The translations under genes and the position numbers were made by a program. Shown piece by piece: positions 380 through 62,519 of a stretch of DNA of 64,000 nt; within the stretch, counting starts at the first letter, position 1; every line of letters starts with the position of its first letter. The notes beneath the pieces were generated by a model, which saw only the letters and a list, made by a program, of their open reading frames with translations, ran no database searches and had not been told where the DNA came from. The DNA is taken from contig NC_089433.1 of NCBI RefSeq assembly GCF_026210795.1, positions 4,675,001-4,739,000 of the forward strand. The letters run 5' to 3'. Source of the stretch: Rhizophagus irregularis (lineage: Eukaryota > Glomeromycota > Glomeromycetes > Glomerales > Glomeraceae).

Positions 380-2122
380 TTAAATCTTGAATAAAAATAT
401 ATATATATATTTACCATCATCATCATCAATTTCGGTTAATTTAATTTTTTTATTTGTTCTTTCTGAATTTTTTTTTAAAAAAAAAAAATTAAAAAAATAT
501 ATATATAATCAATGGCGCAATAGATTATAAAAACATCTGACATCACCTTCAATCAGATTAATATCAAGTTCTCTTTTATCTTTTTAAAAAATATGAAATA
601 TTATCAGTAATAATACATAGACGCTAGACTCAGATAGTTAAGAAGCTAATAAAATAATATAATAATTACCATTAAAAAATTCATCACTACTTTGGTACGG
701 GTCTAAATAAATAAATTTGTGAAATTATTTTACTTAAAAGAGGTAATAACTAATATAAAGATGTCTTGACCATTTACCAAGTTTTGTAAAAATTTCCGTA
801 GATTCAACAGAATTGATCATTGTACTCAAAGATCTACTTTTATAAATAAAATCTGGATTATTTATCGTTATTGGTCCAATATCTGGTGACTTTATAATTT
901 TAGTAGGATTATTGTCACGACAATTATCAGATTCCATTAACAAAATATTTCGAATTTTTGATTCTATATCAAAAGCTGTTGGTCTTTTCTTTGGATCATG
1001 ATGCCAACATTCTTGCATTAATTCAATATAGCCTTCAGGTGCATTTGTAACAATTGGAGGACGAAGTCCATCACATATTTGAATAATAAGTTCTGTATTA
1101 TGGTATCGATCCCAAAAAGGCCTTCTACCTGTCATCAATTCCCACATGATCATACCAAAACTATATACATCTGAAGCTTTAGTATATTTCTTTCCCTGAA
1201 TAATCTCTGGATCCATGTAAGGAATAATTCCATAAATCTCATTATAATCAGAATCTAATGATTCACTTACGATTTTTGCCTCCGCTAAATCACCTATAAT
1301 CGCAAAATTTCTTTCAAGTAAAATATTTCCACTATGAATATCCCCATGAACTATATTTGCATTATGCATATTTTTAAGTCCAAGTATAATGTAATTCAAT
1401 ATATTTAACTTATCTATCCAATTATGTTTTAAAAAATCATCGATTAAATAATGCGCTAGATCTCCTGATTCATAATATTTAATGACTATCGCAAAATTCT
1501 GAGTAGTAGGATCTAGAGTGATTCCATAATATTTATTAATATATGGATAATAACCGTCATTATCACATGGATCATAACTAGCCATTGAAAGTATGAATTT
1601 ATAAAACATCTTAATCTAAAGTTAATGTAAGTATTGTTATTATATTATATGATAAATTAAATTAATATTCAATAATCAAAAATACCGTACCTCATTTAAA
1701 CCTCCAGAATTGATGTATTTAGAACTACTAAGTTTCTTAAGTACAACGTTCATTTCACCATAACTATCATACTTCTGTTTTTTATGATTCCAATAAGAAA
1801 TTGGTCCATCAATCCAAGTGGCCTTATAAATTTTACTAAATCCTCCTACGGCAATAAATTCTATATCTTTAAATCTATCATAAGGAATAAATTCCATTTT
1901 ACCCGCTTTTTCATTACGATTGGTCAAAGTATATTTTATAAAATCATCAACAACTCTATTTCCGCTTGGTATAAATGCTGTCATCGGTTTGTAACATGAT
2001 TTACAAATTTGAAATTCATTTAAATATTTTCTTTTTCGATCGCATCCATTACATTTCTTAAATTCATCAAGTACGTTGTGCATTGATTTAATTTTTGGTC
2101 TATTTTTTGTTGTACGCTCCAT
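380..2122 (-). CDS. TKL-type protein kinase, five exons (paralog 1)
   Basis: Predicted exons (minus strand, 5' to 3'): 2122-1691, 1615-778, 702-670, 579-547, 462-380; the joined length is 1419 nt (472 aa) in frame. The start is the ATG at 2122, in a position equivalent to the paralog at 6728. The N-terminus has a zinc-ribbon-like C24-x2-C27 and C40-x2-C43. The kinase domain follows: Gly-rich loop (about 90-100), Lys129 in VVLKK, catalytic loop HGDIHSGN (234-241; HGD in place of HRD), and the DFG position read as DLA (253-255). The APE motif is read as DPE. The P+1 and C-lobe motifs (ASDVYSFGMIMWE, RRPFWDR, CWHHDPKKRP) are strong. The first intron splits the lobe at LNE, as in the other kinases here. 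The final exon ends in a strong donor (GATG before GTAAAT), so further exons are possible. An alternative end reads through the exon-4 donor to a stop at 509. The loss of the DFG Gly makes reduced activity likely. Confidence 0.88.
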
Positions 2123-3119
2123 GATAATTATACCGTATATTATTAAATTCTTGAAAAAAAATATTTGCAAAATGAAGGAAAGATTGAAAAAAAAAAAATC
2201 TTAATTACGCCACATTTATTTTCGGTGATTACAAAAATTTAAAAATAAGTGATCGTCACAACGCATACTTTTGAATTCCACGAATAATATTCATTTAAAA
2301 ATTTATTTAAATAAAAAATTTGCCTTTATAATTCCTCGAATAAACGATGAAAAATATATTTTAGTCTGAAGATCGTGCATTTAATGTATTGTACATAGAA
2401 AGTTTATTTTTATACTATGAGTGATATAATTATTATTTTTTTTTATAAACTTTATTAGTATTGAAATAATAATTACCAATGTAATCATTCCCGATTTAGA
2501 CGTAAAAAAATACGGTATCCGATCAAAATCTCGACAGTCATTTGCACGACTAACATAAGATCGATAACAAAATTTCGACAATCCAAAATCCTGAAAAGTC
2601 ATTATATCGACAATTTTAAATCTAATGATGAGTGTTCTAATAAAATAATTTGTTACAACATGTAATATTTAGTTTAAATGTGGTAAATTTCATAATTTTG
2701 TTCCTAAAATTGTCAGAATAATCAACTTGTCGGTATAATGATTTGTCCGGATTTTGACTTGTCATTTGTTGTCGGTCTTGAAGTGCCGACTCACTGCCGA
2801 GTAACTGTTGTATTTGCAATAAGCAATATGATTGGTGGAATTTACTGAGCGCAACTCACTGATCATATTGTATTTTATTGCAAGGCACAATGGTGCCGCA
2901 GTTATGAGGTCACGTGTGCCGAGTAACTTTTTTTATCAGGCTTACAAAGTATTTTTTTTTATACAGCTTAGTAGGTTGTACTAACATCACCAATTAGTAA
3001 ATGTCTGAATGTCTGATAATGTTCTATACTATACTACAAACAAACCTAAATATATTGTGATTAAGTTCATTAAAGTATATTAAAAAAATTACTCTATTGA
3101 AAGATATTATTCATTTACT
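2123..3119. other. intergenic, possible kinase fragment at 2450-2600
   Basis: Mostly AT-rich sequence without a recognisable gene. On the minus strand at about 2590-2480 a short frame begins with a TTTTCAG acceptor-like sequence and DFGLSK, followed by an IPYF segment. This resembles the activation segment of the neighbouring kinases (DFGxSK...IPYxxPE), but the rest of a kinase is not visible. It could be a small relic or chance. Confidence 0.2.
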
Positions 3120-5013: not shown

Positions 5014-6728
5014 TTAAGCAATGCCATCATCATCATTTTCAGACAATCTAATTTTTTTCGTATCTTCATCTAAATAAATAATTAAAGATTAATAATATAG
5101 ATCATAGGTTAATCAATAATAAAATTGATTATAAGAAGAATCACCTTCAATCAAATTATTATCAAGTCTCCTTTTATCTTCTAAAGGAAAGATAAAAAAA
5201 TAATAAATAAAATATAAGATAAAAATTATTAGTAATGATAGGAAATAAATCAACACATTAAATAATAAATAAAAAACTACCATTAAAAGATCCTTCATCA
5301 CTTTGGTATGAGTCTAATAAAATATTTAAAATATTTCTTTAAAAAAAGATATTAATCATTTAAAATGAATATAAATGTAAAATATTTACCAATTTCTGTT
5401 AAGCTTCTTGTAGATTCTGTAGACATTATTAAACTCAAAGAATTGCTTTCATATATACCACTTGGATTATTTATTGTTACAGGTCCAATATCTGATGATT
5501 TTATAATTTTAGTTGGATTGCTTTCATGATAATTATCAGATTCTATAAGCAAAATATTTTTAATTTTGGATTCTATTTCAGTAATTGTTGGTCTTTTCGT
5601 TGGATCGTGATGCCAACACATTTGCATTAAATCAATATAACCTTCTGGTGCATTTGTGACAATTGGTGGTCGTAAGCCATCACATATTTCATGAATAAGT
5701 TCTATATCATGGTCTCTATCCCATAAAGGCCTTCTACCTGTCATTAATTCCCACATGATCATACCAAATCCATATATATCTGAAGCTTTAGTATATATCG
5801 GCTTTACAAAATTTTCTGGAGCAAAAAATGGAATAACCCCATAAATTTCATTACTATCATCATGTACTAATGCTGATTTGCTTAATCCTAAATCACCTAT
5901 TATTGCAACGTTATTTTCAAGAAAGACATTTCCATCACGAATATCTCCATGGATTATATTTGCATTATGCAAATTTTTAAGTCCAAGTACAATATAGTTC
6001 AATATATTTAACTTATCTAACCAACTATGATTAAAAAAATCGTTGAGTAAATAATGTGTTAAATCTCCTGATTCATAATATTTAATAATTATCGCAAAAT
6101 CTTTAGTAATAGGGTCTTGAGTAATACCATAACATTTATTAACGTATGGATAATAACCATCATTATCATACGGGTCATAACTAGTCATTGATTGTGTAAA
6201 ATTATAAAATATCTTAAGCTAAAATTAAAATTAGAAATGTTATTCATAATATTATAGTAAGTAATATTTAAACCTCATAATCGAGAAATACCGTACCTCA
6301 TTTAAACCTCTGGAATTTATGTTTTTAGTATTATGAAGTTTCTTGAGTACAACCTTCATCTCACCATAACTATCATATTTTAGTTTTTTATGATTCCAAT
6401 AAGAAATTGGTCCATCAATCCAAGTGGCCTTGTAAACTTTACTAAATCCTCCTTCAGCGATAAATTCTATATCTTTAAATCTATCATAAGGAACAAATTC
6501 CATTTTCCCAGCCATTTCATTACGATTGGTTAGAGTGTGTTTAATAAAATCATCAACTACTTTATTTCCACTTGGTATAAACGCTGTCATCGGTTTGTAA
6601 CATGATTTACAAATTTGAAATTCATTTAAATATTTTCTTTTTCGATTACATCCATTACATTTCTTAAATTCATTAAGCACGTTGTGTATTGACGTAATTT
6701 TTGGCTTTTTGCTAGTTAATTGTTCCAT
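5014..6728 (-). CDS. TKL-type protein kinase, five exons (paralog 2)
   Basis: Exons (minus, 5' to 3'): 6728-6297, 6218-5390, 5313-5281, 5180-5145, 5069-5014; the joined length is 1386 nt (461 aa). It has the same exon layout as the kinase at 380-2122 and clear sequence identity along its length, so the two are tandem duplicates. Zinc-ribbon-like Cys are at 24, 27, 40 and 43. The Gly loop reads AEGGFSKVYK, with Lys129. The catalytic loop is HGDIRDGN (234-241) and the DFG equivalent is DLG (253-255). C-lobe motifs ASDIYGFGMIMWE, RRPLWDR and CWHHDPTKRP follow. The short acidic/polar tail is spread over three mini-exons. If the last donor (GAAG before GTGATT at 5144) is not used, the frame stops at 5113. 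Unlike paralog 1, the DLG glycine is kept. Substrates are unknown. Confidence 0.9.
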
Positions 6729-27044: not shown

Positions 27045-27180
27045 TTCTTCTTTCATCAACATTTGCTCCGTCATCAACATTTATTGCTCCGTCATCAACA
27101 TTTATTGCTCCGTCATCAACGTTTCCTTGCTCTGTCGTCAACGTTTCCTTCAACATTTCCTTGCTCCGTTATCAACATTT
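27045..27180. repeat. 21-bp minisatellite (CATCAACATTTATTGCTCCGT)
   Basis: Four to six imperfect tandem copies of a unit of about 21 bp, degrading toward the right (CATCAACGTTTCCTTGCTC). The unit is a multiple of three, so both strands keep open frames through it. The encoded repeats (SSTFIAP on plus, MLM-rich on minus) have no other support as genes. Confidence 0.75.
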
Positions 27181-31342: not shown

Positions 31343-31554
31343 TTGACCATTCTTTAGATAGATAATTTTTACAAGGGGATCGTTTGCATCGCCCTTAATT
31401 GGTGTCAGAGAGATCCTTTGTCTTGTAAAAATTTACCCTTTCTTGATCATTTGACCATTCTTAGATAGATAAATTTTACAAGGGGATCGTTTGCATCGCC
31501 CTTAATTGGTGTCAGAGAGATCCTTTGTCTTGTAAAATTTACCTTTCTTGATCA
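31343..31554. repeat. tandem duplication of a 104-108-bp hairpin unit
   Basis: Copies 31343-31450 and 31451-31554 are nearly identical and start TTGACCATTCTT. Inside each, TTTTACAAGGGGATC pairs imperfectly with GATCCTTTGTCTTGTAAAA, giving a hairpin of about 75 nt. Its loop side holds TTGGTGTCAGAG, one base from the TGGTATCAGAG primer-binding site common in copia-type retrotransposons. It could be LTR-element debris or a structured RNA; neither is shown. Confidence 0.6.
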
Positions 31555-34156
31555 TTTGATCTATCTCATGTGATTTTCTTCTTCACATGTGATATCCTTT
31601 ATTTCATTCCTTTGTTGAGTTTCTTTCCTTAATAACTTATCAACTCAACAAAAATCCATCACCGTTGGTTCCACAATTTCTGTGTCCAAGTTCAATTCTT
31701 GGAGGTGATTTTCTTTATCTTCTTTTTTCAATTTTCTTTCTTCTTTTATAGGAGTTCCAGACGAAATTATAAACTAGACTTTAGGTAGAAAATATTTTAT
31801 TATTTGTTTTTTTTAGTAGTATTTTTAATATTACTTATTTTTCTTTTTCTTTTAGGGATTGCTGAGACGAACTGGACTCCTGTGTTATAAAACAAATGAT
31901 CACACAGCAAAGTTTGTGCGTCTATATAGTACATTCAGTATTCTTTGCACAAAGAGTAATAAAATTTTTATCACGTTGTTCTTAGTGGCGATTATGACGT
32001 TCATTTGAAGAATCTCTCACTCCAAGACAGGTGATAAAACAGAGAATCTAACAATGATGGTATTTTCAGTTTTTTCGTGTGTCATTTACAAATTACAAAT
32101 TACAAATTATATATTATAGATTATAAAATTATAGATTCGTTTTATATATTATTTATTATGAATTTTATATAAACAAATAGTTAAAGCCTTTTACGTGAAA
32201 CTTTGTCTATACACGCCTTACATAAAGCATATTTATTACAGGTATTTGCTTTTTAATTAAGAACTTCTTTATATACTGTTAGTTGATGCTTTCCCATTTT
32301 CAGTTAAAAGTATGCAGACATACAATGATATAAACAGTACAGACTACACGAACTGATACTTAAAATTTTATTTAAAATTTGTTTAATTTAATTGGCCAAA
32401 ATTTGTACAACTCAGTCCAATTCCAATTGACAAAAGTCCATTTGACTGGACCGTCCAGTCCAGTGACCAACACTGTACATAGTATATAAATAGAATCTAA
32501 CGCATTAAACGCTGTTAATGTGAAATAAAATTATTATAATTATGGAATCAGAAATCTTAGCTAGCCTACCAATAAATGATAATAATATAAAATAGAAAAT
32601 AGCAACATATTAAAATATTGCAGTCAAATTACGTGATGCATAATTTTGAGAGATTATTGTTGACACGCTTTTCGTATTAATAATCTTAAGTAGTTAAGTT
32701 TCGTTTTATGAGTAAAATAAAAAATGCGATTTTATTGAATTTGAAAATTATAATGTTTGCCACATTTAAAATCATCATTATTTTTTATATCAATCAAAAG
32801 ATTTAAGAGAATTTAGATTTTTTATGATTTTATATTTTCTTGAAGAATTTTTAGAAATTGGTACAATTCAACATACACATCTGAAAAAGAGATGAGAAGA
32901 TAACCACTTGAGAGGATGGCTGTTAGCATTATCTCATTATCATCTGACCAAACCGAAATTGGATTAGCCACAAAAATCTCATTCAGCCATTGGTACGCAC
33001 ACATAACCACGATAGTATTTTTAATCATAATAAATACAGGAAAGATCGGGCGCAAATCATCCATATTACACAATTCTAAATTTTTGAATCCAAATCAAAA
33101 TATTTATATATAATAACTAACGGTGTGAAAAAATAAAATGGGGATGAACTGTTTTTTAGTTTTTCATGCATATTACTAATATTCAAATGACTTTTTTTAA
33201 TTTAATTATATTCAATATATAAAATAAAAATTATGTTATTACTTTTGAAATCAATGAAAAAGAAAAAAATATCTTGATTCTTTTGTATTAAACACATTTT
33301 TTTAGTAGCATCATTTTTATTCTGAGTAAAAAATTTTGCTCACAAAAGTTTAGATATTAAATTAATTGTGTATTTAAATACCAAACAAAAAAAAAAAAAT
33401 GGTTAAATTAACTTTTTTTAAAAAAAAGAATCTTTTCTTTATGTAAGAAAATTTCTTTAAGAGGTTTTTTAAAAGTTGATCTCGCCTCTAAAATAAAAAG
33501 TTCAAATTTTTATTAAATTTTTTTTTTTTTTTTTGATGACATTCTTTTTTTTTTCAAAAACTATTTGAATAAAATCGGCAAATTTAGCAAGTTAGAAAAA
33601 TAAATATTTCTATTTTGCATAAACTATTTGTAATACGTATTCAAAAAAATCATTGTATCTGATTCGTTCATTTATGCATATATGGAAATTTGAGCAACTA
33701 AAAAAAAGTTGTGAAACAAATAAAAAGAGTTTTTTTGCGTAACAAATTGTTGCGTAAACTATATATAAACCATTCGTTAAGGGAGAATAGGCGTTATGTT
33801 CTTGGATTGACACGTTATTTTTATTCCTATATCTACAATCTAAGATATTAAATTTGTAGGCAAAGCTCAACAAAGAATATACTTTGCAAGTGTTTTGATG
33901 AGGGTAATTTTATTCAAATATACATATATATATGTATAAATTTGTACCACTATATTTGAGAAAGTACCAGATAGGGGAAATTAGTATCTGTTTTTAATGT
34001 ACGATAAATCGAAAAAAAATCAATTATCAAACATATTTAGCTAATTTTGTAATTACTGGAAGTCGCATTAGTGATTTTGGTTATTTGAAGTTATATTTAA
34101 ACAACCTTTATTCGTTGAGGTAGATACCACTCATCATACTAATAAAGTTCTTTAGT
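31555..34156. other. intergenic, no supported gene
   Basis: TTGTTGAGTT / AACTCAACAA (about 31613-31653) forms a short hairpin. A minus frame at 32822-33073 (83 codons, containing NPISVWSDDNEIMLTAIL) has moderate coding look but no motif. A poly-T stretch lies at 33518-33534. Nothing else is supported. Confidence 0.35.
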
Positions 34157-38626: not shown

Positions 38627-40023
38627 ATGGAAGAAATTAAGATCGATGATGATGTTTTCAACCAATTAAAAGAACTTCACGGTCAATTAACTGAAGAACA
38701 AAATTTGTTAATAGACAAATTAATATTAAATGATGAATTAAAAGAACGTTTTAAAGCGTTTCATTTATGTGATGAATGTAAACAACCTAACACCGGTAAT
38801 GATTGGTGTCAATCATGTAATGCTAATCGTTTTAAACTAAATTTCAAAAATTGGTCTAGCGGAAACGATATCATTGATGAGTTTATTCAAAAAGCGCAAC
38901 TTGAGGCTAAACATTATCGTGGAGTATTAGAATGGATTGATTATGATAGATTTGAAGACGTTAAATATTTGACCAAGGGAGGATTCGGTATTACTTATAA
39001 AGCAATTTGGAAAGATGGTAATATATGTAATTGGGATTCTAAAACAAATAAATGGCAAAGAAGTAATTTCGACGAAGATCAGATGACGAAAGTTGCTTTA
39101 AAATCTATGCAAAACTTACAAGATATTACAATCGAACTTTTAAGAGAAGTAAGTTTTTTTTTTTATTTATAATAAATAATTCTTAACGATATTAATCTAT
39201 AAAATGCTAATATTATTATTCTTTTTAGATTGAATTACATGTTGTAACGCCTGGTAAAAATGGTGGGGAAATTTGTTGTTATGGTATCACTAAAGATCCA
39301 GAAACGAATAACTTCTTGTTTGTGATGAGTTTTGTAGAAAATGGTGGTTTAAGACATCATTTAGATAAAAATTTTAATTTAATGGATTGGAGACAAAAGT
39401 TAACGATTTTAAAAGATATTGCGAATGGTCTTAACGAAAATCATTATGATAATAAATTAAATGATATCAATAGCGCTTATATTACTGATTTAGGATTATG
39501 TCAATTAGCAATTACAGAATTAAAATCTTTTCATAATGATAATAAAGAAATGTATGAAGTATTACCTTACGTAGCTCCTGAAGTTCTAAAAGGAGAAAAA
39601 TATACTAAAGAAAGCAATATTTATGGATTTGGGATTATTGCATTTGAAGTTTGCACAGGATTACCTCCTTATCAAAATATGAGTCATGAAGAAATATTGG
39701 CTAGTGAAATTTGTAAAGGGTTGAGACCAGATAACGATTATAAAATCCCTCAATTAATTATTGATTTAATTAAAAGTTGTTGGGATGCGGATCCTTTAAA
39801 ACGTCCTAAAATAGAAGAATTATGTAATGAATTAGTAAATTTATGTAATTATAATTCAGAAATATCTAAACAATTTGAGGAGGCTGATAAAATTAATGAA
39901 AAGTTATCTATTCCATTAACACCTGGTATAATCTTGTATACAACAAATTCTCAAGCAGTTTATACAAGCAGATTTTTAGATTTTGATAACCTTCCAGAAC
40001 CTAAAAATGCTGATGATGATTAG
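38627..40023 (+). CDS. TKL-family pseudokinase, catalytic loop missing
   Basis: Exons 38627-39148 and 39229-40023, phase 0 (1317 nt, 438 aa); GTAAGT donor and CTTTTTAG acceptor. An N-terminal helix is followed by a zinc-ribbon-like C48-x2-C51 and C61-x2-C64, then the family motif NWSSGNDIIDEFI. The Gly loop is TKGGFGITYK and the Lys is 159 in KVALKSM. After IANGLNE (243) the sequence runs directly through a short Asn/Asp-rich segment to AYITDLGLCQ (257-265). The HRDxxxxN loop, present in every other kinase here, is absent. DLG, APEVLKGEKYT, the YGFGIIAFE helix and CWDADPLKRP are intact. Phosphotransfer is therefore unlikely, and a scaffold or regulatory role is more plausible. The frame is otherwise undamaged, so it does not look like a simple dead copy. 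Confidence 0.9.
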
Positions 40024-43805: not shown

Positions 43806-45371
43806 ATGGAAAACAAGCCAACCATTAACTCATTAATGACACACAAACCACACCTGAAAATGTTTAAAAATTGTACTGAATGTAATCGAATAATTTTCAG
43901 CGAAATTAATGCCAACTGCTATCAATGTTGTAAATTAAGAAGTATTCCGTTAAGCGGAAATAAAGTTGTTGATGACTTTATAAGAAGATATACATTAGTT
44001 AACGGTGAAGTGTGTATAGAATTTGTTCCTTTCGATAAATTCAAAGATGTAAAATATATTGGTGAAGGGGGATTTAGTAGAGTATATAGTGCCACTTGGA
44101 AAGAAGGTCCGATAGCTAATTGGAATGACGAAAAACAAAAATATGCTCGTCATGGTAAAATAACAGTTGCACTTAAGGAACTTAATGAATCTAAAAACAT
44201 AAGTCCTAAGGAATTAAATGAGGTACGGTATTTTACACCAATTCAAATTATAAAATCTCGTTGCAAATCATTAGTATATTAACAAAAATAAATATTATTT
44301 TAGCTCAAGATATATTTCAATATTACTTTAAATTGGAAAAGTGATAATTTCAATTATATTAATATCAACACGTATTATGGGATTACCCAGAATCCCATCA
44401 CTCAAAATTTTATGATCGTCATGAAATATTTTGAATCAGGGGATTTAGCGCATTGTTTATTTAATAAATTTTTTAATTTTAGCTGGTGTAATAAGTTAAA
44501 TGTTTTAAAGGATATTGCATCTGGATTGAAAGATATGCACAGCACAAATATTATCCATAAGGATTTTCATAGTGGAAATATTTTTATTACGGGGAATTTT
44601 TGCATGAATGCATTTATCGCTGATTTTGGGATTAGTAAATCTGCATTAGATGATGATGATGAGATTTATGGAATTATTCCCTATGTTGCTCCAGAAATAT
44701 TTCTAAGTCATAAATATACTAAAGCGTCGGACATATATAGCTTTGGTATGATCATGTGGGAGGTAATGACAGGTAGAAAGCCTTTTTGGGATCGAAATCA
44801 TGACGCAGAACTTATTGTTGAAATATGTATAATTGGAGCTCGACCTCCAATTGTTACGGATGCGCCTGAGGGCTATATTGAATTAATGAAAGAATGTTGG
44901 CATCCTAATCCAAATGAAAGGCCGACGGCTACTGAGTTAAAAGGAAAACTTTGGAATATTCTGGACGAAGAACAAGATCCCTTTTCAACTCCAACTAAAA
45001 TTACGAAGACACCGGATATTGGACCTGTAACAGCAAATAATCCATGCGCTATATATAAGAGTAGAGCTTTAAGCGCAATGATAAAATCTATAGAATTTAC
45101 TAAATGTTTAAAAATTCAAGGTAATTTTAATATTTTATTAATAATTTAACTGTTAAATTTCATTACTATCTCAGAGAAACTAAATTCTCTCTTTTTTTTA
45201 TTTAGATTATTTTACAAAAGAACTTGAATTTGATATTGACATTGATAATAATCATAGTAATTGTAAGTAATGAATATACTTGATTAATAACACAATTAAA
45301 TTCGTATATTAATAATTTATTTATAATTTATAGATTATATTACCAGAGAAATTGATTTTGATATTTATTAA
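43806..45371 (+). CDS. TKL-type protein kinase with canonical motifs, four exons
   Basis: Exons 43806-44222, 44304-45120, 45206-45262, 45334-45371 (1329 nt, 442 aa). Zinc-ribbon-like Cys are at 23, 26, 38 and 41. The Gly loop is GEGGFSRVYS, with Lys124 in VALKEL. The catalytic loop is HKDFHSGN (224-231; HKD variant) and DFG (246-248) is intact. APEIF, ASDIYSFGMIMWE, RKPFWDR and CWHPNPNERP follow. The last mini-exon gives YYITREIDFDIY, a tail style common in this kinase family. It is closest in text to the pair at 380-2122 and 5014-6728, including the GAG before GTACGG first donor. Just upstream, TATATATA (43748-43755) and a T-tract ending in TTAG (43794) allow a TATA box or a leader-intron acceptor. 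An overlapping upstream ATG at 43796 opens a 10-codon frame that could lower translation. Confidence 0.92.
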
Positions 45372-48431: not shown

Positions 48432-49934
48432 CCCTATAAAAAAATTGGATACGTTTTTTATAAAGTTTTTATACGATTTTTTTTCCTTAGAAATAACGTA
48501 TCATAATAGGATACGGAAAAATGCACAATTCCGTATCACCAAAAATATGGTTTGGATACGGAATTTGCACGGGATTTATATGGAATTTACATGATTTGAT
48601 CACTGATTTTATCACGAAATTTATACGATTTGGTCACTGAATTTACTATTTGTATTACAGTTTACTATAATTGTATTTACATAAATCTAATTTCACTTTA
48701 TTAAATTAAATAAAAAATAAAAAATAAACAAAGTACAAATACATTATGAAAATTCCCTCTTTATTAAAACCACCTATTGCAACCTAAATTATCTATAAGT
48801 TCAGGTTCATTTGTAGTCAAACAACCTAAAAGAACAGAAAAAAAGATTGGAAACAAAACCCCCCATCTGCAATCGTCCAAGTCACCAAAGGTCAGCATTC
48901 CTACAAAAAAAGAAAGAGAACTCCAGAATGTCTGACCTACATAAAAGAAAAGAATTATGAGGCGTCTAATGAAAAAGAAACCAAAACAACAAAATAAATC
49001 CAAAACTGACCTACAAAAAAAGAAGACTCTGAAGCAACAAAACTGAAACAACCTACAAAAAGAAAAGAATCTGAACCCAACATACAAAAAAACAAAAAAA
49101 TTTGAACTGACCTAAAAAAAGAAAAAAATCCTGAATCATCCTACAAAAAGAAAAGGACTCCCAAACTGATCTACAAAAAAAAAAAAAAAAGAAACTGAAT
49201 ATTCTCACAAAAAAAATCTGCTGGCCTATGAAATTAAATCCAAAAAAAATATTTTTTTAAAAAGAGGGATAACGAAGTTAGGAAAGTTAAAAAAAAATTT
49301 TTTTTTAAAGGGAGGACGTCAAAGTTAGAAAAATAAAAATTTTTTTATAAAGAGGAAATAGAAATAGAAAGAAGAAATTTTTTTTAAAAAAAAAAGAAGA
49401 GTGGGAATAAAAGAAAAAATTTTTTTTCAAAGTAAAGTGACGAAAAAAAAATTTTTAAAGTGAGGTACGAAAAAAAAAATTATTTTTAAAAGGGGTGACG
49501 AAAAAAAAAATTATTTTTAAAAGGGGTGACGAAGAAAGAAGAAAAATTTAGAAAAAATAACAAAAATAAGACAAGAGAAAGAGAAAGGAAAGGAAAGACA
49601 GAAAGGAAGATCGGAAGATCAAACTCATCAAAGTAAGGGTTTATATAAAAAACAAAAAACGTATCATAACAAAACAATAAACAATCATGTGATCTCGTGT
49701 TATGATACGGAATTTTTGTAAAATTATCTTCTAAAAATATTAAGTTTAAAAATTCCGTATACATTCCGCATGATTAATTTTTTCCCGTATACATTTCTTA
49801 TACATTAGTTTTTTAAAAAAATGTTCAAAAATGAATTACTTATTAAATATACGGAATTTGTATACGGAATCTATAGAAACGTACATAAAATGTATACAAA
49901 ACGTATCCTTTCCGTATACATATTTTTTATAGGG
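48432..49934. mobile_element. 1.5-kb non-autonomous TIR transposon with subterminal repeats
   Basis: Ends CCCTATAAAAAA and TTTTTTATAGGG; flanking CTT on both sides (48429-48431 and 49935-49937) is a possible 3-bp target duplication. Both ends are packed with GGATACG/CGTATCC and ATACGGAAT/ATTCCGTAT words in both orientations over 150-250 bp, like transposase-binding arrays. The interior (48780-49560) is strongly purine-rich on the plus strand, first with about 38-bp degenerate repeats containing CTGACCTACAAAAAAAGAAAA, then with GGGGTGACGAAAAAAAAAATT repeats. Minus frames here are only translations of this bias. A 3-bp duplication with subterminal repeats suits CMC/EnSpm-type elements. Confidence 0.65.
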
Positions 49935-56835: not shown

Positions 56836-59800
56836 TTACATACCTAATGACTTCAAATTAACCATACATTCACTCAAATCTTCACTTACAAGCATTTCAT
56901 TCACTTTTATACTAGCTTGTGAATCTTCACTTTCAGGAATTCCATTCAATTTTTTGCTAGTATTTTCATCTGTTTTAATATTTAAATAATTAAATAAATA
57001 AAATTAATTTCACAAAAATCACTTGCAAGATTAATTTTATACATACTAAATTACTTACCTAACAATTTCAAATCTTTAATCATATAATCATTCAAATCTT
57101 CACTTACCAGCATTTCACTTTCAAGAATTTCATTCAATTTTTTACTAGTAAAATTAAGCAAGCGACTTGTATAACAAGCCTGTGGATGAGATTCAGTAAC
57201 AAGATTATTATGTTCAATTGGTGCATTTATAAATTCCATAGCATTGCGTTTTAATACTTCATCAATATCTTTAATTTCCTTGCCATAAGGAAGATAAATC
57301 CATTTTTTAATAATTTCTAAAACTTCCTCAGAAGATGGCCTTTTTAATGGATCTTCATCCCAACATTTTTTCATTAAATCTACATAACATTGTGGAGTAT
57401 TTTCAATAATTTCAGGACGTTCACCTTTACAAATACTTAAACTAAGTTGAATATCATGTGCTCTATTGTTAAATGGTGGTATTCCAGATGTAAATTCCCA
57501 CATAATCATAGAAAAACTGTATATATCACTAGCTGAAGTATAAGATTTGCCTCTTAAAACTTCAGGTGCCATAAATGGTACAACACCAAAAATCTTATAC
57601 TCTTTTAAAAATGATTTTACAGGTTGACATAATCCTAAATCACTAACATAAATTTTATATGCTCTATTCTTTTCATCTTTTTCATAATAATTATGATTTA
57701 AAATATTGCCATCATGAAAATCACAATGAATAAGATTTTGCTTATGTATCACATTAAGTCCAGAAATAATTCCATACAACATATATAATTTTTGATCCCA
57801 AGCACTTTCAACTATTCTTGTTAAGTTTTCTCTTAAATTACCTTTGTTTGCATAATACATTACTGCCATATATTTTAAAGTATCTGGATTTTTTGTAAAT
57901 CCATAAAAATAAATAATTTCAGATGAATCTAAACAACTTTCATGACATTCCCACTATAAAAAATAATAATATATTAATAAAAGTAGATTATAATTTAAAT
58001 TAAAAAAATAAAATAATATACTATCATACTTCATTTAAAAATTCATTCAAATTTTCATTTAAATTATTATGACATTTAAGAATTACTTCTTTATCATTCT
58101 TTAACCAAATAGCTTTGTATATGGTACCAAATCCTCCTTTATTAAGATATTCAACATTTTTAAATTTATTATAAGGAATCCATTTTAATCCTTTTTCCAA
58201 AATAAATTTATCCATAATTGTATTTTCACTTTTTCCAAATCTATAAATTTAAAGAATTAAAAATATATTAAAGTTTATAATAAAATTTACACTAAAACAC
58301 TAATGTTAAGATTAAAATTAACACTTACTCTAAAATTCAAATAGGAATTTAAGATAATATATGTCTTAGTTCTTGTATAAATATATACAATAATAAGTTA
58401 TATTTCACAACTTACCAACTAAAGTAATAGAAATTTTAAATGAAAGAATACAGTTAATAAATAAATATTATATAAAATATGTAACAATAAAAATAACAAA
58501 TAACCTACAAGCTATATTATTAAATAATTTTTAAATAAAGAATTTAGTTAGTTTAAATTATATGTAAATATTATAACAATAAGTAATAATAGAATTAAAT
58601 AAATAACTTACGATCTAAAAGAAATTACAAAATAATTTTTTAAATAAAGAATTTGATTTAATAGTTTAAATTATATGTAAATATTATAACAATAAGTAAT
58701 AATAGAATTAAATAAATAACTTACCATCTAAAAGAAATTACAAAATAATTTTTTAAATAAAGAATTTAGTTAGTTTAAATTATATGTAAATATTATAACA
58801 ATAAGTAATAATAGAATTAAATAAATAACTTACGAGCTATATTATTTTAAATAAAGAATTTAGTTAGTTTAAATTATATGTAAATATTATAACAATAAGT
58901 AATAATAGAATTAAATAAATAACTTACGAGCTATATTATTTTAAATAAAGAATTTAGTTAGTTTAAATTATATGTAAATATTATAACAATAAGTAATAAT
59001 AGAATTAAATGAATAACTTACCATCTAAAAGAAATTACAAAATAATTTTTTAAATAAAGAATTTAGTTTAATAGTTTAAATTATATGTAAATATTATAAT
59101 AATAAGTAATAATAGAATTAAATAAATAACTTATAACTTACAATCTATTGAATAAAGAATTTAGTTAGTTTAAACTATATGTAAATATTATAACAATAAG
59201 TAATAATAGAATTAAATAAATAACTTACGATCTAAAAGAAATTACAAAATAATTTTTTAAATAAAGAATTTAGTTTAATAGTTTAAATTATATGTAAATA
59301 TTATAACAATAAGTAATAATAGAATTAAATAAATAACTTACCATCTAAAAGAAATTACAAAATAATTTTTTAAATAAAGAATTTAGTTTAATAGTTTAAA
59401 TTATATGTAAATATTATAATAATAAGTAATAATAGAATTAAATAAATAACTTATAACTTACAATCTATTGAATAAAGAATTTAGTTAGTTTAAACTATAT
59501 GTAAATATTATAACAATAAGTAATAATAGAATTAAATAAATAACTTACAAGCTATATTATTTAAATAATTTTTTAAATAAAGAATTTAGTTAGTTTAAAT
59601 TATATGTAAATATTATAACAATAAGTAATAATAGAATTAAATAAATAACTTACGATCTAAAAGAAATTACAAAATAATTTTTTAAATAAAGAATTTAGTT
59701 TAATAGTTTAAATTATATGTAAATATTATAACAATAAGTAATAATAGAATTAAATAAATAACTTACGATCTAAAAGAAATTACAAAATAATTTTTTAAAT

Positions 59801-61928
59801 AAAGAATTTAGTTTAATAGTTTAAATTATATGTAAATATTATAACAATAAGTAATAATAGAATTAAATAAATAACTTACGATCTAAAAGAAATTACAAAA
59901 TAATTTTTTAAATAAAGAATTTAGTTTAACAGTTTAAATTATATGTAAATATTATAACAATAAGTAATAATAGAATTAAATAAATAACTTACGATCTAAA
60001 AGAAATTACAAAATAATTTTTTAAATAAAGAATTTAGTTAGTTTAAATTATATGTAAATATTATAACAATAAGTAATAATAGAATTAAATAAATAACTTA
60101 CGATCTAAAAGAAATTACAAAATAATTTTTTAAATAAAGAATTTAGTTTAATAGTTTAAATTATATGTAAATATTATAACGATAAGTAATAATAGAATTA
60201 AATAAATAACTTACCATCTAAAAGAAATTACAAAATAATTTTTTAAATAAAGAATTTAGTTTAATAGTTTAAATTATATGTAAATATTATAATAATAAGT
60301 AATAATAGAATTAAATAAATAACTTATAACTTACAATCTATTGAATAAAGAATTTAGTTAGTTTAAACTATATGTAAATATTATAACAATAAGTAATAAT
60401 AGAATTAAATAAATAACTTACAAGCTATATTATTTAAATAATTTTTTAAATAAAGAATTTAATTAGTTTAAATTATATGTAAATATTATAACAATAAGTA
60501 ATAATAGAATTAAATAAATAACTTACCAACTAAAAGAAATTACAAAATAATTTTTTAAATAAAGAATTTAGTAAGTTTAAATTATATGTAAATATTATAA
60601 CAATAAGTAATAATAGAATTAAATAAATAACTTACGAGCTATATTATTTAAATAATTTTTTAAATAAAGAATTTAATTAGTTTAAATTATATGTAAATAT
60701 TATAACAATAAGTAATAATAGAATTAAATAAATAACTTACGATCTAAAAGAAATTACAAAATAATTTTTAAATAAAGAATTTAGTTAGTTTAATTTTACA
60801 GTATGTAAATCTTATAACAATAAGTAATAATAGAATTAAATAAATAACTTACGAGCTATATTATTTTAAATAAAGAATTTAGTTAGTTTAAATTTTACAG
60901 TATGTAAATATTATAACAATAAGTAATAATAGAATTAAATAAATAACTTACGATCTAAAAGAAATTACAAAATAATTTTTTAAATAAAGAATTTAGTTAG
61001 TTTAATTTTACAGTATGTAAATCTTATAACAATAAGTAATAATAGAATTAAATAAATAACTTACGAGCTATATTATTTTAAATAAAGAATTTAGTTAGTT
61101 TAAATTTTACAGTATGTAAATCTTATAACAATAAGTAATAATAGAATTAAATAAATAACTTACACCCTATATTATTTAAATAATTTTTTAAATAAAGAAT
61201 TTAGTTAGTTTAAATTATATGTAAATATTATAACAATAAGTAATAATAGAATTGAATAAATAACTTACGAACTATATTATTTAAATAATTTTTTAAATAA
61301 AGAATTTAGTTAGCTTAAATTGTATAACAATAGAAATATAGGCATCATATAACTTACACCCTGAATTATTATTAATTTTTTTTTTTATTAGTTAGATATA
61401 AATATAATAAGAAAGGTATTTGCTATAAATTGAATATATTACTTACAATCTATTTATTTAAATTAAGAATATAATTAATTAAATTATATTAAATATTGAT
61501 AAATAAATATAATAAATTAATATTCTTAAGTATTATAACTTACTAGCTGTAATATAATTAATTAGTTGTTATTTGAATATTATGTAAAATAAATAAAGTA
61601 AAAAACTATTAATTTAAACAACTGATAACTTACAAACTATAGTATTAAATGAATTATTTAGTCACATAGGATATAATAAAAATAATAAGTAATTTTATTA
61701 TTATTTAATTATAAGATAACCTATTAACTTACGAGCTAAATTATTTAATATAATTTTTATATAATGCAGTTAGTTTGTATATTATATATAGGTTTATTTA
61801 CAGATAAGTATTCAAATTATTTGCAATAAAAATTTAATATTTCAGATACCTTCAAATTCTTCAGAGCCATTTTTATTTTCTTCAGAGCCATTTTTTTTAT
61901 TAATACTACCGGAAACTAGTTTTATCAT
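56836..61928 (-). CDS. TKL-type protein kinase, predicted 38 exons including 34 micro-exons
   Basis: Exons (minus): 61928-61850; 34 micro-exons (listed in the array entry); 58240-58030; 57953-57059; 56969-56836. The sum is 1419 nt (472 aa). Kinase motifs: SENTIMDKFI (family pattern before the domain), Gly loop NKGGFGTIYK, Lys115, WECHESCLDSSEII, catalytic loop HCDFHDGN (206-213), DLG (235-237), APEVLRGKSYT, ASDIYSFSMIMWE, CWDEDPLKRP. Exon 58240-58030 is open only in phase 2. The 5' exon starting MIKLVSGSINK ends in phase 1, and the single 1-nt micro-exon supplies the shift. The last exon repeats the preceding exon's tail (KKLNxIxES..VSEDL). The zinc-ribbon Cys of the sister kinases are absent. 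The kinase exons are certain; the micro-exon joining and the 5' exon are inferred. A simpler alternative is translation from the ATG at 58215 with the array as untranslated or unrelated DNA. Confidence 0.6.
58241..61849 (-). repeat. tandem array of 35 introns separated by 3-nt (one 1-nt) micro-exons
   Basis: Each 84-117-bp unit on the minus strand has a GTAAG donor, CTAAC/CTAAA, and a YAG acceptor. Micro-exon last bases, in transcription order: 61733 CTC, 61634 TTT, 61544 CTA, 61447 ATT, 61358 GGT, 61269 TTC, 61164 GGT, 61065 CTC, 60952 ATC, 60853 CTC, 60741 ATC, 60636 CTC, 60527 TTG, 60422 CTT, 60335 ATT, 60215 ATG, 60102 ATC, 59993 ATC, 59880 ATC, 59767 ATC, 59654 ATC, 59549 CTT, 59462 ATT, 59342 ATG, 59229 ATC, 59142 ATT, 59022 ATG, 58928 CTC, 58834 CTC, 58725 ATG, 58612 ATC, 58509 CTT, 58416 TTG, 58329 A. 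Each 3-nt exon spans the given base and the next two. Units from about 58560 to 61320 are near-identical (tail types AAAAGAAATTACAAAATAATTTTTT or TATATTATTTAAATAATT). The outer ones are diverged except at the splice signals. Confidence 0.8.
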
Positions 61929-62519
61929 ATTACCAATTTGTTAAAAATTTCAAAATTCTTATTGTATTAAATGTTCATACTATATATACGATTTTTACCT
62001 TTACCAATACATTGACCCATTACTATGTATTATATCAAAATTTTCTCTAACTGAAAAGAATAAAACAAATCTTTTTTTTCTTCTTTTTTTTATTATTTAT
62101 TAAACGCCTTATTAGTATGAGTAAATATGGTAATAATATTTATGCAAATTCATTATGTACATCATAAGTATTGCATATATGCACATATGACATAAATGTT
62201 GCATATCAATCAATCTTTATTGTTACGTAGCAAACATCACGAAATAGAGAAAATTGTCTCATATTAAATATATAAATTTCAAAAGTCATTAAGAAGGTCA
62301 AGTTTGGCTGCTTTGCAAGTTTACTTAGAATGACAAAGGTAGTTTTAAATATCACTATCGATTTTTTGTAAAATTGAAAAATGATCGGCACATATTCATT
62401 TTCTAGTTTTATTTTAAAAAAAAAGTTGCGGAAATATTTGGACAAAGTTACAAGTCAGTTACTAAAAACACTAAAAAATATATCAAATTCTTCAACATAA
62501 TAGAGTAGGAGTGTAAGGT
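61929..62519. other. upstream region of the micro-exon kinase
   Basis: AT-rich, with a pyrimidine/purine run near 62070-62090. An in-frame stop lies four codons above the ATG at 61928. No core promoter element is distinctive. A 79-codon minus frame at 62206-62445 has no recognisable features. Confidence 0.35.

Follow-up and report, generated by a model that had tools for sequence, protein, structure and literature searches.

Predicted micro-exon array in a fungal kinase gene

Contig NC_089433.1 of the fungus Rhizophagus irregularis (assembly GCF_026210795.1) contains, between positions 4,675,001 and 4,739,000, a minisatellite-like array located upstream of kinase exons (58241..61849, minus strand; "the window" denotes the whole stretch of 64,000 nucleotides analysed here). 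We propose, with a probability of roughly 0.86 and on the basis of sequence comparison, that this array belongs to a kinase gene in which units of an intron and a 3-nucleotide (nt) exon encode the linker between a short N-terminal region and the kinase domain. The series would be closed by a 1-nt exon, and every unit would be spliced and translated. The array comprises 35 intron-like units with 34 micro-exons between them, of which 33 are exactly 3 nt long and the last one (58329) measures 1 nt. An earlier note on this DNA had described the array as consecutive introns separated by 3-nt exons, and this description holds not only for the window gene: the same layout recurs at 26 further loci of the genome.

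The donor GTAAG follows 33 of the 34 micro-exons, with GTAGG after 58509 as the single exception, and the 33 introns that separate one micro-exon from the next measure 84-117 nt; in both respects our recount agrees with the earlier note. The units are clear tandem duplicates. The motif YAGNNNGTAAGT was counted 32 times in the 64-kb window, every copy on the minus strand and inside the array, whereas dinucleotide shuffles of the window gave an expectation of 0.42, and on this count a chance origin of the array was rejected. Joined to each other, the micro-exons encode about 33 residues (ALSNWFRSHPHPLAYYDHHHHPYYDHYAPHDPF), which corresponds to 100 nt within a coding sequence for 478 amino acids.

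Joining of all predicted exons and the array resulted in a single frame of 478 amino acids ending at a stop codon (Table 1). The open frame from the 5' exon to the kinase exons postulated in the earlier note was thus recovered, although it depends on the 1-nt exon, whose inclusion brings 5' and kinase exons into one frame; omission of the whole array, or of the 1-nt exon alone, leads to stops inside the first kinase exon. The earlier note had not singled out the 1-nt exon as the frame-restoring element. The profile PF07714 matches residues 92-346 of the joined protein with 132.6 bits, above the curated cut-off of 23.1, which identifies the predicted product as a protein kinase (PF07714 / PF00069).

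Exon length is held in paralogous arrays and intron length is not

The genome (146.7 Mb, 32 contigs) was searched for homologues of the array. As 28 of 557 candidates were scored, the number of loci is a lower bound; after merging of overlapping pieces the parsed set consisted of 27 loci including the window. These loci contain 1033 three-nt and 26 one-nt exons, with 23-75 units per locus. The parser admits only 3-nt and 1-nt exons, laxer donors fill some units, and 38 gaps remain, some containing long extra DNA and others broken sites. Because of this restriction, the sum of the array exon lengths of 1 modulo 3 is built in, and the evidence on exon length that is independent of the parser consists of the spacing between YAG and donor, counted in the 27 arrays and genome-wide.

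Without any length rule, the nearest YAG upstream of the 1008 GTAAGT donors in the 27 arrays is located at a distance of 3 nt in 956 cases, 1 nt in 27 and 2 nt in 7. The remaining spacings are 4 nt (3 donors), 10 nt (2), 0 nt (2) and 6 nt (1), and 10 donors have no YAG within 14 nt. A donor 21-mer with 1293 copies in the genome gave the same picture, with YAG at 3 nt in 1248 copies, at 2 nt in 5 and at 4 nt in 2. Parsed introns vary from 53 to 132 nt (gaps above 135 nt were set aside) and are spread over the three classes modulo 3 (369/265/360). As the spacing is fixed at 3 nt and the introns vary in length through all classes modulo 3, exon length is held and intron length is not.

Donor, branch-like motif and acceptor of GT-AG introns are all present in the units. 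In the parse, which asks for such sites, 989 of 1059 donors are GTAAGT, and the acceptors are TAG (1005/1059) or CAG (47/1059). The branch-like motif CTRAY was found in 848 of 994 introns compared to 247 of 994 after base shuffling. Most parsed arrays also carry ATT-GGT close to the start, often preceded by CTN-TTN-ATG, and share the trailer CTT-TTG. At locus L017 several units show a GC donor (GCAAGT) after the 3-nt exon TTG, in the manner of GC-AG introns in register; seven donors of this type are included in the parse of all loci.

Phase and the terminal 1-nt exon

In our gene model the introns are in phase 1, so that each codon consists of the last base of one micro-exon and the first two bases of the next. 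The earlier note had spoken of one codon per exon; the series of 3-nt exons stands, whereas phase 1 splits the codons over two micro-exons. The last 5' exon was sought in phase 1 alone; the scan detected such an exon at 22 of the 27 loci and none at L010, L018, L027, L028 and L029m. Most of the detected exons end in variants of a shared peptide, for example ...TKESK/G or MDQRIE/G. Nine loci were parsed free of gaps and eight of them have a 5' exon according to the scan; all eight are open from this exon through the array and the 1-nt exon into the first kinase exon. Fourteen further loci were joined across gaps, of which 12 are open and two (L017, L023) contain stops. Two complete genes could be assembled, with 478 and 457 amino acids.

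The terminal 1-nt exon is present in 26 of the 27 parsed loci (A in 25, T in one); at L018 none was detected. Its 24-nt context occurs at 76 sites of the genome with at most two mismatches, compared to one site for a control, and 71 of the 76 precede one of 150 listed kinase exons at a distance of at most 150 nt.

Stop codons are avoided only at consecutive junctions

None of the 969 consecutive junctions read in phase 1 is a stop codon. When the exons were shuffled within their loci, the mean was 26-27 stops, with a lowest value of 16 in 2000 shuffles and of 13 in 500. Fifteen other pairings gave 12-30 stops each: 22, 30, 23, 19, 20, 23 and 22 for shifts of +2 to +8, and 30, 26, 24, 18, 21, 16, 15 and 12 for shifts of -1 to -8. 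Combining the last base of an exon with its own first two bases gave 14 stops. At consecutive junctions, a T-ending exon is followed by an exon starting with AA, AG or GA in 0 of 249 cases, whereas exons of this type follow A-, C- and G-ending exons in 50 of 257, 20 of 155 and 53 of 308 cases. This bias is significant when each junction type is counted once per locus (Fisher p 2e-12) and when it is counted once over all loci (4e-6). In a genome-wide pattern search an AG-starting exon followed in one of 248 T-ending pairs, and 55 A-ending pairs of this kind were counted, a figure that covers only those followed by AG.

Ten of the 27 arrays, among them the array of the window, have no exon starting with AA, AG or GA and are uninformative on stops, so that this evidence comes from the 17 paralogs holding both exon types. 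Taken singly, the absence of stops has a chance below 0.05 in only four of these 17 (range 0.001 to 0.69). Such a result is what would be predicted for a message in which neighbouring micro-exons are spliced together and read in phase 1; it indicates selection on the spliced product and argues against skipping as the usual outcome. Because the layout recurs in the paralogs and stops are avoided only at consecutive joins, a translated mRNA most likely contains the micro-exons in their order. Taken together, the comparative evidence, namely the paralog layout, the fixed exon length, the shared phase, the 1-nt exon and the avoidance of stops, supports the reading of the array as consecutive introns.

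Micro-exon composition

Among 53 positions around the exon, variability within loci is highest at exon base 1 (0.64) and base 3 (0.69). Exon base 2 shows a value of 0.50 and ranks below two intron positions (0.51, 0.53). The bases of the splice sites hardly vary (0-0.05), and values at the remaining intron positions lie between about 0.05 and 0.5. The variability of the micro-exons may reflect either diversifying selection or merely low constraint. The junction codons span all 20 residues, of which D, R, W, Y, G, F, N and I are the most frequent, and 940 of the 969 codons have T or G in third position. The NNK scheme is used for random peptide libraries. The predicted junction codons resemble this scheme, as T or G at the third position permits all 20 residues and leaves TAG as almost the sole possible stop.

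Public gene models and contrary observations

Several observations weigh against translation of all micro-exons in phase 1. The public model of the window gene, P0026, starts within the first kinase exon (MDKFILEK) and does not contain the array, and the models P0044 and P0059 skip it. P0015 joins the micro-exons of its own array singly, which speaks for their splicing, but in phase 0, and from the likeness of their N-termini P0021 (R. irregularis) and P0037 (R. diaphanus) probably do the same. Such compromise models would be the likely outcome for a gene finder that fails to position a 1-nt exon. When the window protein was compared with a protein database, no phase-1 micro-exon peptide was present in the 42 of 57 matches examined. 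The first 105 residues were covered to at most 48% in the 57 matches, which corresponds to about the kinase start and a few residues. For the predicted protein of L033 three matches were obtained, none with a phase-1 micro-exon peptide, and for L031 there was no match.

Further contrary points come from the loci themselves. Ten donors in six of the 27 arrays (L013, L016, L017, L028, L036 and L029m) have YAG at 2 or 4 nt, and exons of this length would break the frame if included; these genes may be broken or may rely on skipping. L013, L016 and L036 belong to the 12 open loci joined across gaps, and are open with the odd 2- or 4-nt exon left out. The 38 unparsed gaps have to be added. The single genome-wide junction of a T-ending with an AG-starting exon (C6:381463-381572, plus strand) is located outside the 27 loci and is either part of a broken gene or a real exception.

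A literature search by title and start of the abstract revealed no paper on such arrays among the matches listed. For the R. irregularis assembly that is probably the one used here, PMC10234402 states that Nanopore RNA reads served to refine the gene models, and micro-exons are unmentioned in that part of its text which was covered. Another public model, P0058, is MULE-transposase-like and fused to 5' exons of the kinase family (MGQCIGKV...TKESK).

Alternative explanations

The array could be a minisatellite in one long intron, with splice signals that were inherited by duplication or serve as temporary recursive sites, in which case no micro-exon would enter the mRNA. This would fit the plain tandem duplication of the units, the recursive splicing that animals use at juxtaposed acceptor and donor sites (PMC8605326) and the omission of the array in P0044 and P0059. 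It is nevertheless very improbable, because direct joining breaks the frame of the window gene, and neutral repeats would neither hold 3 nt amid the drift of the introns nor shun stops only at consecutive joins. A non-coding minisatellite without any constraint on phase or stops was rejected on the comparison of 0 stops in 969 junctions with 12-30 at the fifteen other shifts.

We assign a similarly low probability to the explanation that the exons are real and each mRNA contains a variable subset, so that one gene would give rise to many linkers. The frame survives any choice of 3-nt exons, alternative splicing generates variants of schistosome micro-exon genes (PMC5825161), and loci with broken units could still be expressed through skipping. 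Junctions from exon i to exon i+2, however, contain 22 stops in 910 cases compared to a shuffled mean of 25.8, which is no avoidance; since skip junctions are unprotected from stops, mRNAs with skipped exons are not the product seen by selection.

A start of the gene at the kinase exon, as annotated in P0026, would leave the array untranscribed or place it in the 5' untranslated region. There would then be no reason why 22 of the 27 arrays are preceded by 5' exons that look coding and share one phase, and a conserved frame-restoring 1-nt exon and the avoidance of stops would be pointless in untranslated DNA. In addition, the codon with which P0026 begins reads ATA in some paralogs (L009, L011 and L013 among them), and we consider this start hardly credible.

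Equally hard to credit is translation in phase 0, where one exon would be one codon and a 5-nt exon, AGTAA, would replace the 1-nt exon, as in P0015 and probably in P0021 and P0037. The end of the P0015 array reads GAA TTG GGT ATC TTG GGC ATC, then a unit with an unusual donor, then GAA CTT TTG A, and the protein reads E-L-G-I-L-G-I-E-L-S-K-F; the stretch E-L-G-I-L-G-I-E corresponds to the genomic micro-exons except for the unusual-donor unit and one of the two last exons. Phase 0 also meets only 3 stops in 1033 exons, where 26 would be expected under independent base positions. TGA, on the other hand, is not avoided as such, since TG-starting exons are rare and 3 of 12 are TGA. Moreover, the detected 5' exons (22 of 27 loci, in a scan for phase 1 only) leave one base and not zero, the avoidance of stops at consecutive joins is a phase-1 signal, and P0015 appears to span the missing phase with intron bases. 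A reading in phase 2 was rejected as it contains 155 stops.

Proposed splicing mechanism and comparison with known systems

For translation of all units in phase 1 we suggest the following course. The tandem unit would be an intron of about 100 nt with a 3-nt exon, and the pre-mRNA would be spliced at every unit with the micro-exons kept in order, giving a linker of roughly 20-75 residues. Each intron would be recognised singly (intron definition) through the full GTAAGT donor, which would require no exon bases. As splice factors cannot occupy both sides of 3 nt together, the introns would be removed in sequence, and each splice would set 3 nt beside the next donor. Such stepwise removal is likely by analogy with recursive splicing, with 3 nt left behind. 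The layout further suggests that unequal exchange between near-identical introns gains or loses whole units; the linker would then grow, shrink or change by three bases with the frame kept.

Ratchet points of recursive splicing leave 0 nt, whereas the arrays described here leave 3 nt each time, which would be translated in our model; YAG is found at 0 nt from 2 of the 1008 donors and at 3 nt from 956. In both, a strong donor comes immediately after an acceptor (AG/GT; PMC8605326).

Like the schistosome micro-exon genes (MEGs), the arrays contain small symmetric exons in series, permit gain and loss without change of frame and result in a variable stretch of protein. MEG exons measure 6-36 bp and account for about 80% of the coding region, and their products are almost always secreted or membrane-anchored, according to PMC5825161. 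Unlike MEGs, the arrays have 3-nt exons (100 nt in total within the coding sequence for 478 amino acids in the window gene) in 23-75 units, are amplified together with the intron, belong to a kinase gene and avoid stops only in the full consecutive product.

In Arabidopsis APC11 (PMC4674806) and Fusarium CYP621A (PMC12940212), a 1-nt exon lies between ordinary introns, and the frame depends on it. In the window gene, too, 1 nt stands between AG and GT and is needed for the frame. The 1-nt exons of APC11 and CYP621A are solitary and have no array; in the present genes such an exon terminates the array, and its context is found just upstream of 71 listed kinase exons. To our knowledge, the known alternatively spliced micro-exons of 3 nt are isolated and do not occur by the dozen in series. 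This length was the smallest previously known for an alternatively spliced exon (PMC4674806).

We think it rather probable that the arrays constitute coding sequence of a new type, namely a minisatellite that is readable only after dozens of consecutive splicing steps contributing 3 bases each. It would comprise more than 1200 exons in perhaps at least 70 kinase genes of one fungus (27 loci parsed), with linkers that vary by exchange of units. If transcripts agree, dozens of consecutive 3-nt exons with a 1-nt exon across many genes would be the most extreme exon-intron organisation we know of. The arrays bear on the minimum exon size under intron definition and on whether splicing must proceed intron by intron, and they would offer a natural substrate for splicing of the recursive type. 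They would also provide a route by which a protein segment varies by whole units without frameshift. If the proposal is true, the signalling kinases of a plant symbiont would possess in them a natural source of variable peptide linkers. Gene finders and spliced aligners would be expected to fail on 3-nt and 1-nt exons, and this class of kinase genes is probably misannotated at the N-terminus.

Features of the window

Table 1. Predicted features of the kinase gene and its micro-exon array (window coordinates).
Feature	Position	Strand	Basis
Array of 35 introns, 33 three-nt micro-exons and one 1-nt exon	58241..61849	-	sequence parse; motif count
First micro-exon, CTC; opens the header CTC-TTT-CTA-ATT-GGT	61733..61735	-	parse
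Last 3-nt micro-exon, TTG; closes the trailer CTT-TTG	58416..58418	-	parse
1-nt exon, A, flanked by TTTTAG and GTAAGT	58329..58329	-	restores frame to kinase exon
Predicted 5' coding exon 1, MGQCIGK; leaves 1 nt	61999..62020	-	in frame with the rest; similar exon in L009, L014, L031, L033
Predicted coding exon 2, SGSINKKNGSEENKNGSEEFE; leaves 1 nt (phase 1)	61850..61915	-	in frame with the rest
First kinase exon, A/TTTGGAAAAAGT..., FGKSENTIMDKFILEKGLKWIPYNKF...	58030..58240	-	joined frame; paralog comparison
Main kinase exon	57059..57953	-	PF07714 match, E 2e-38, on joined protein
3' coding exon	56844..56969	-	joined frame
Last coding exon with stop codon	56746..56762	-	joined frame

A tRNA scan of the window gave no hit. 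Judged by eye, the window contains more kinase-like frames at 734-2170 (-), 5352-6188 (-), 38627-40023 (+) and 44412-45149 (+), and YAGNNNGTAAGT is found nowhere near these four. Further tandem repeats are located at 31343-31559, 27053-27180 and 49032-49537; they comprise a 107-bp unit present twice, a 21-bp unit and A-rich repeats.

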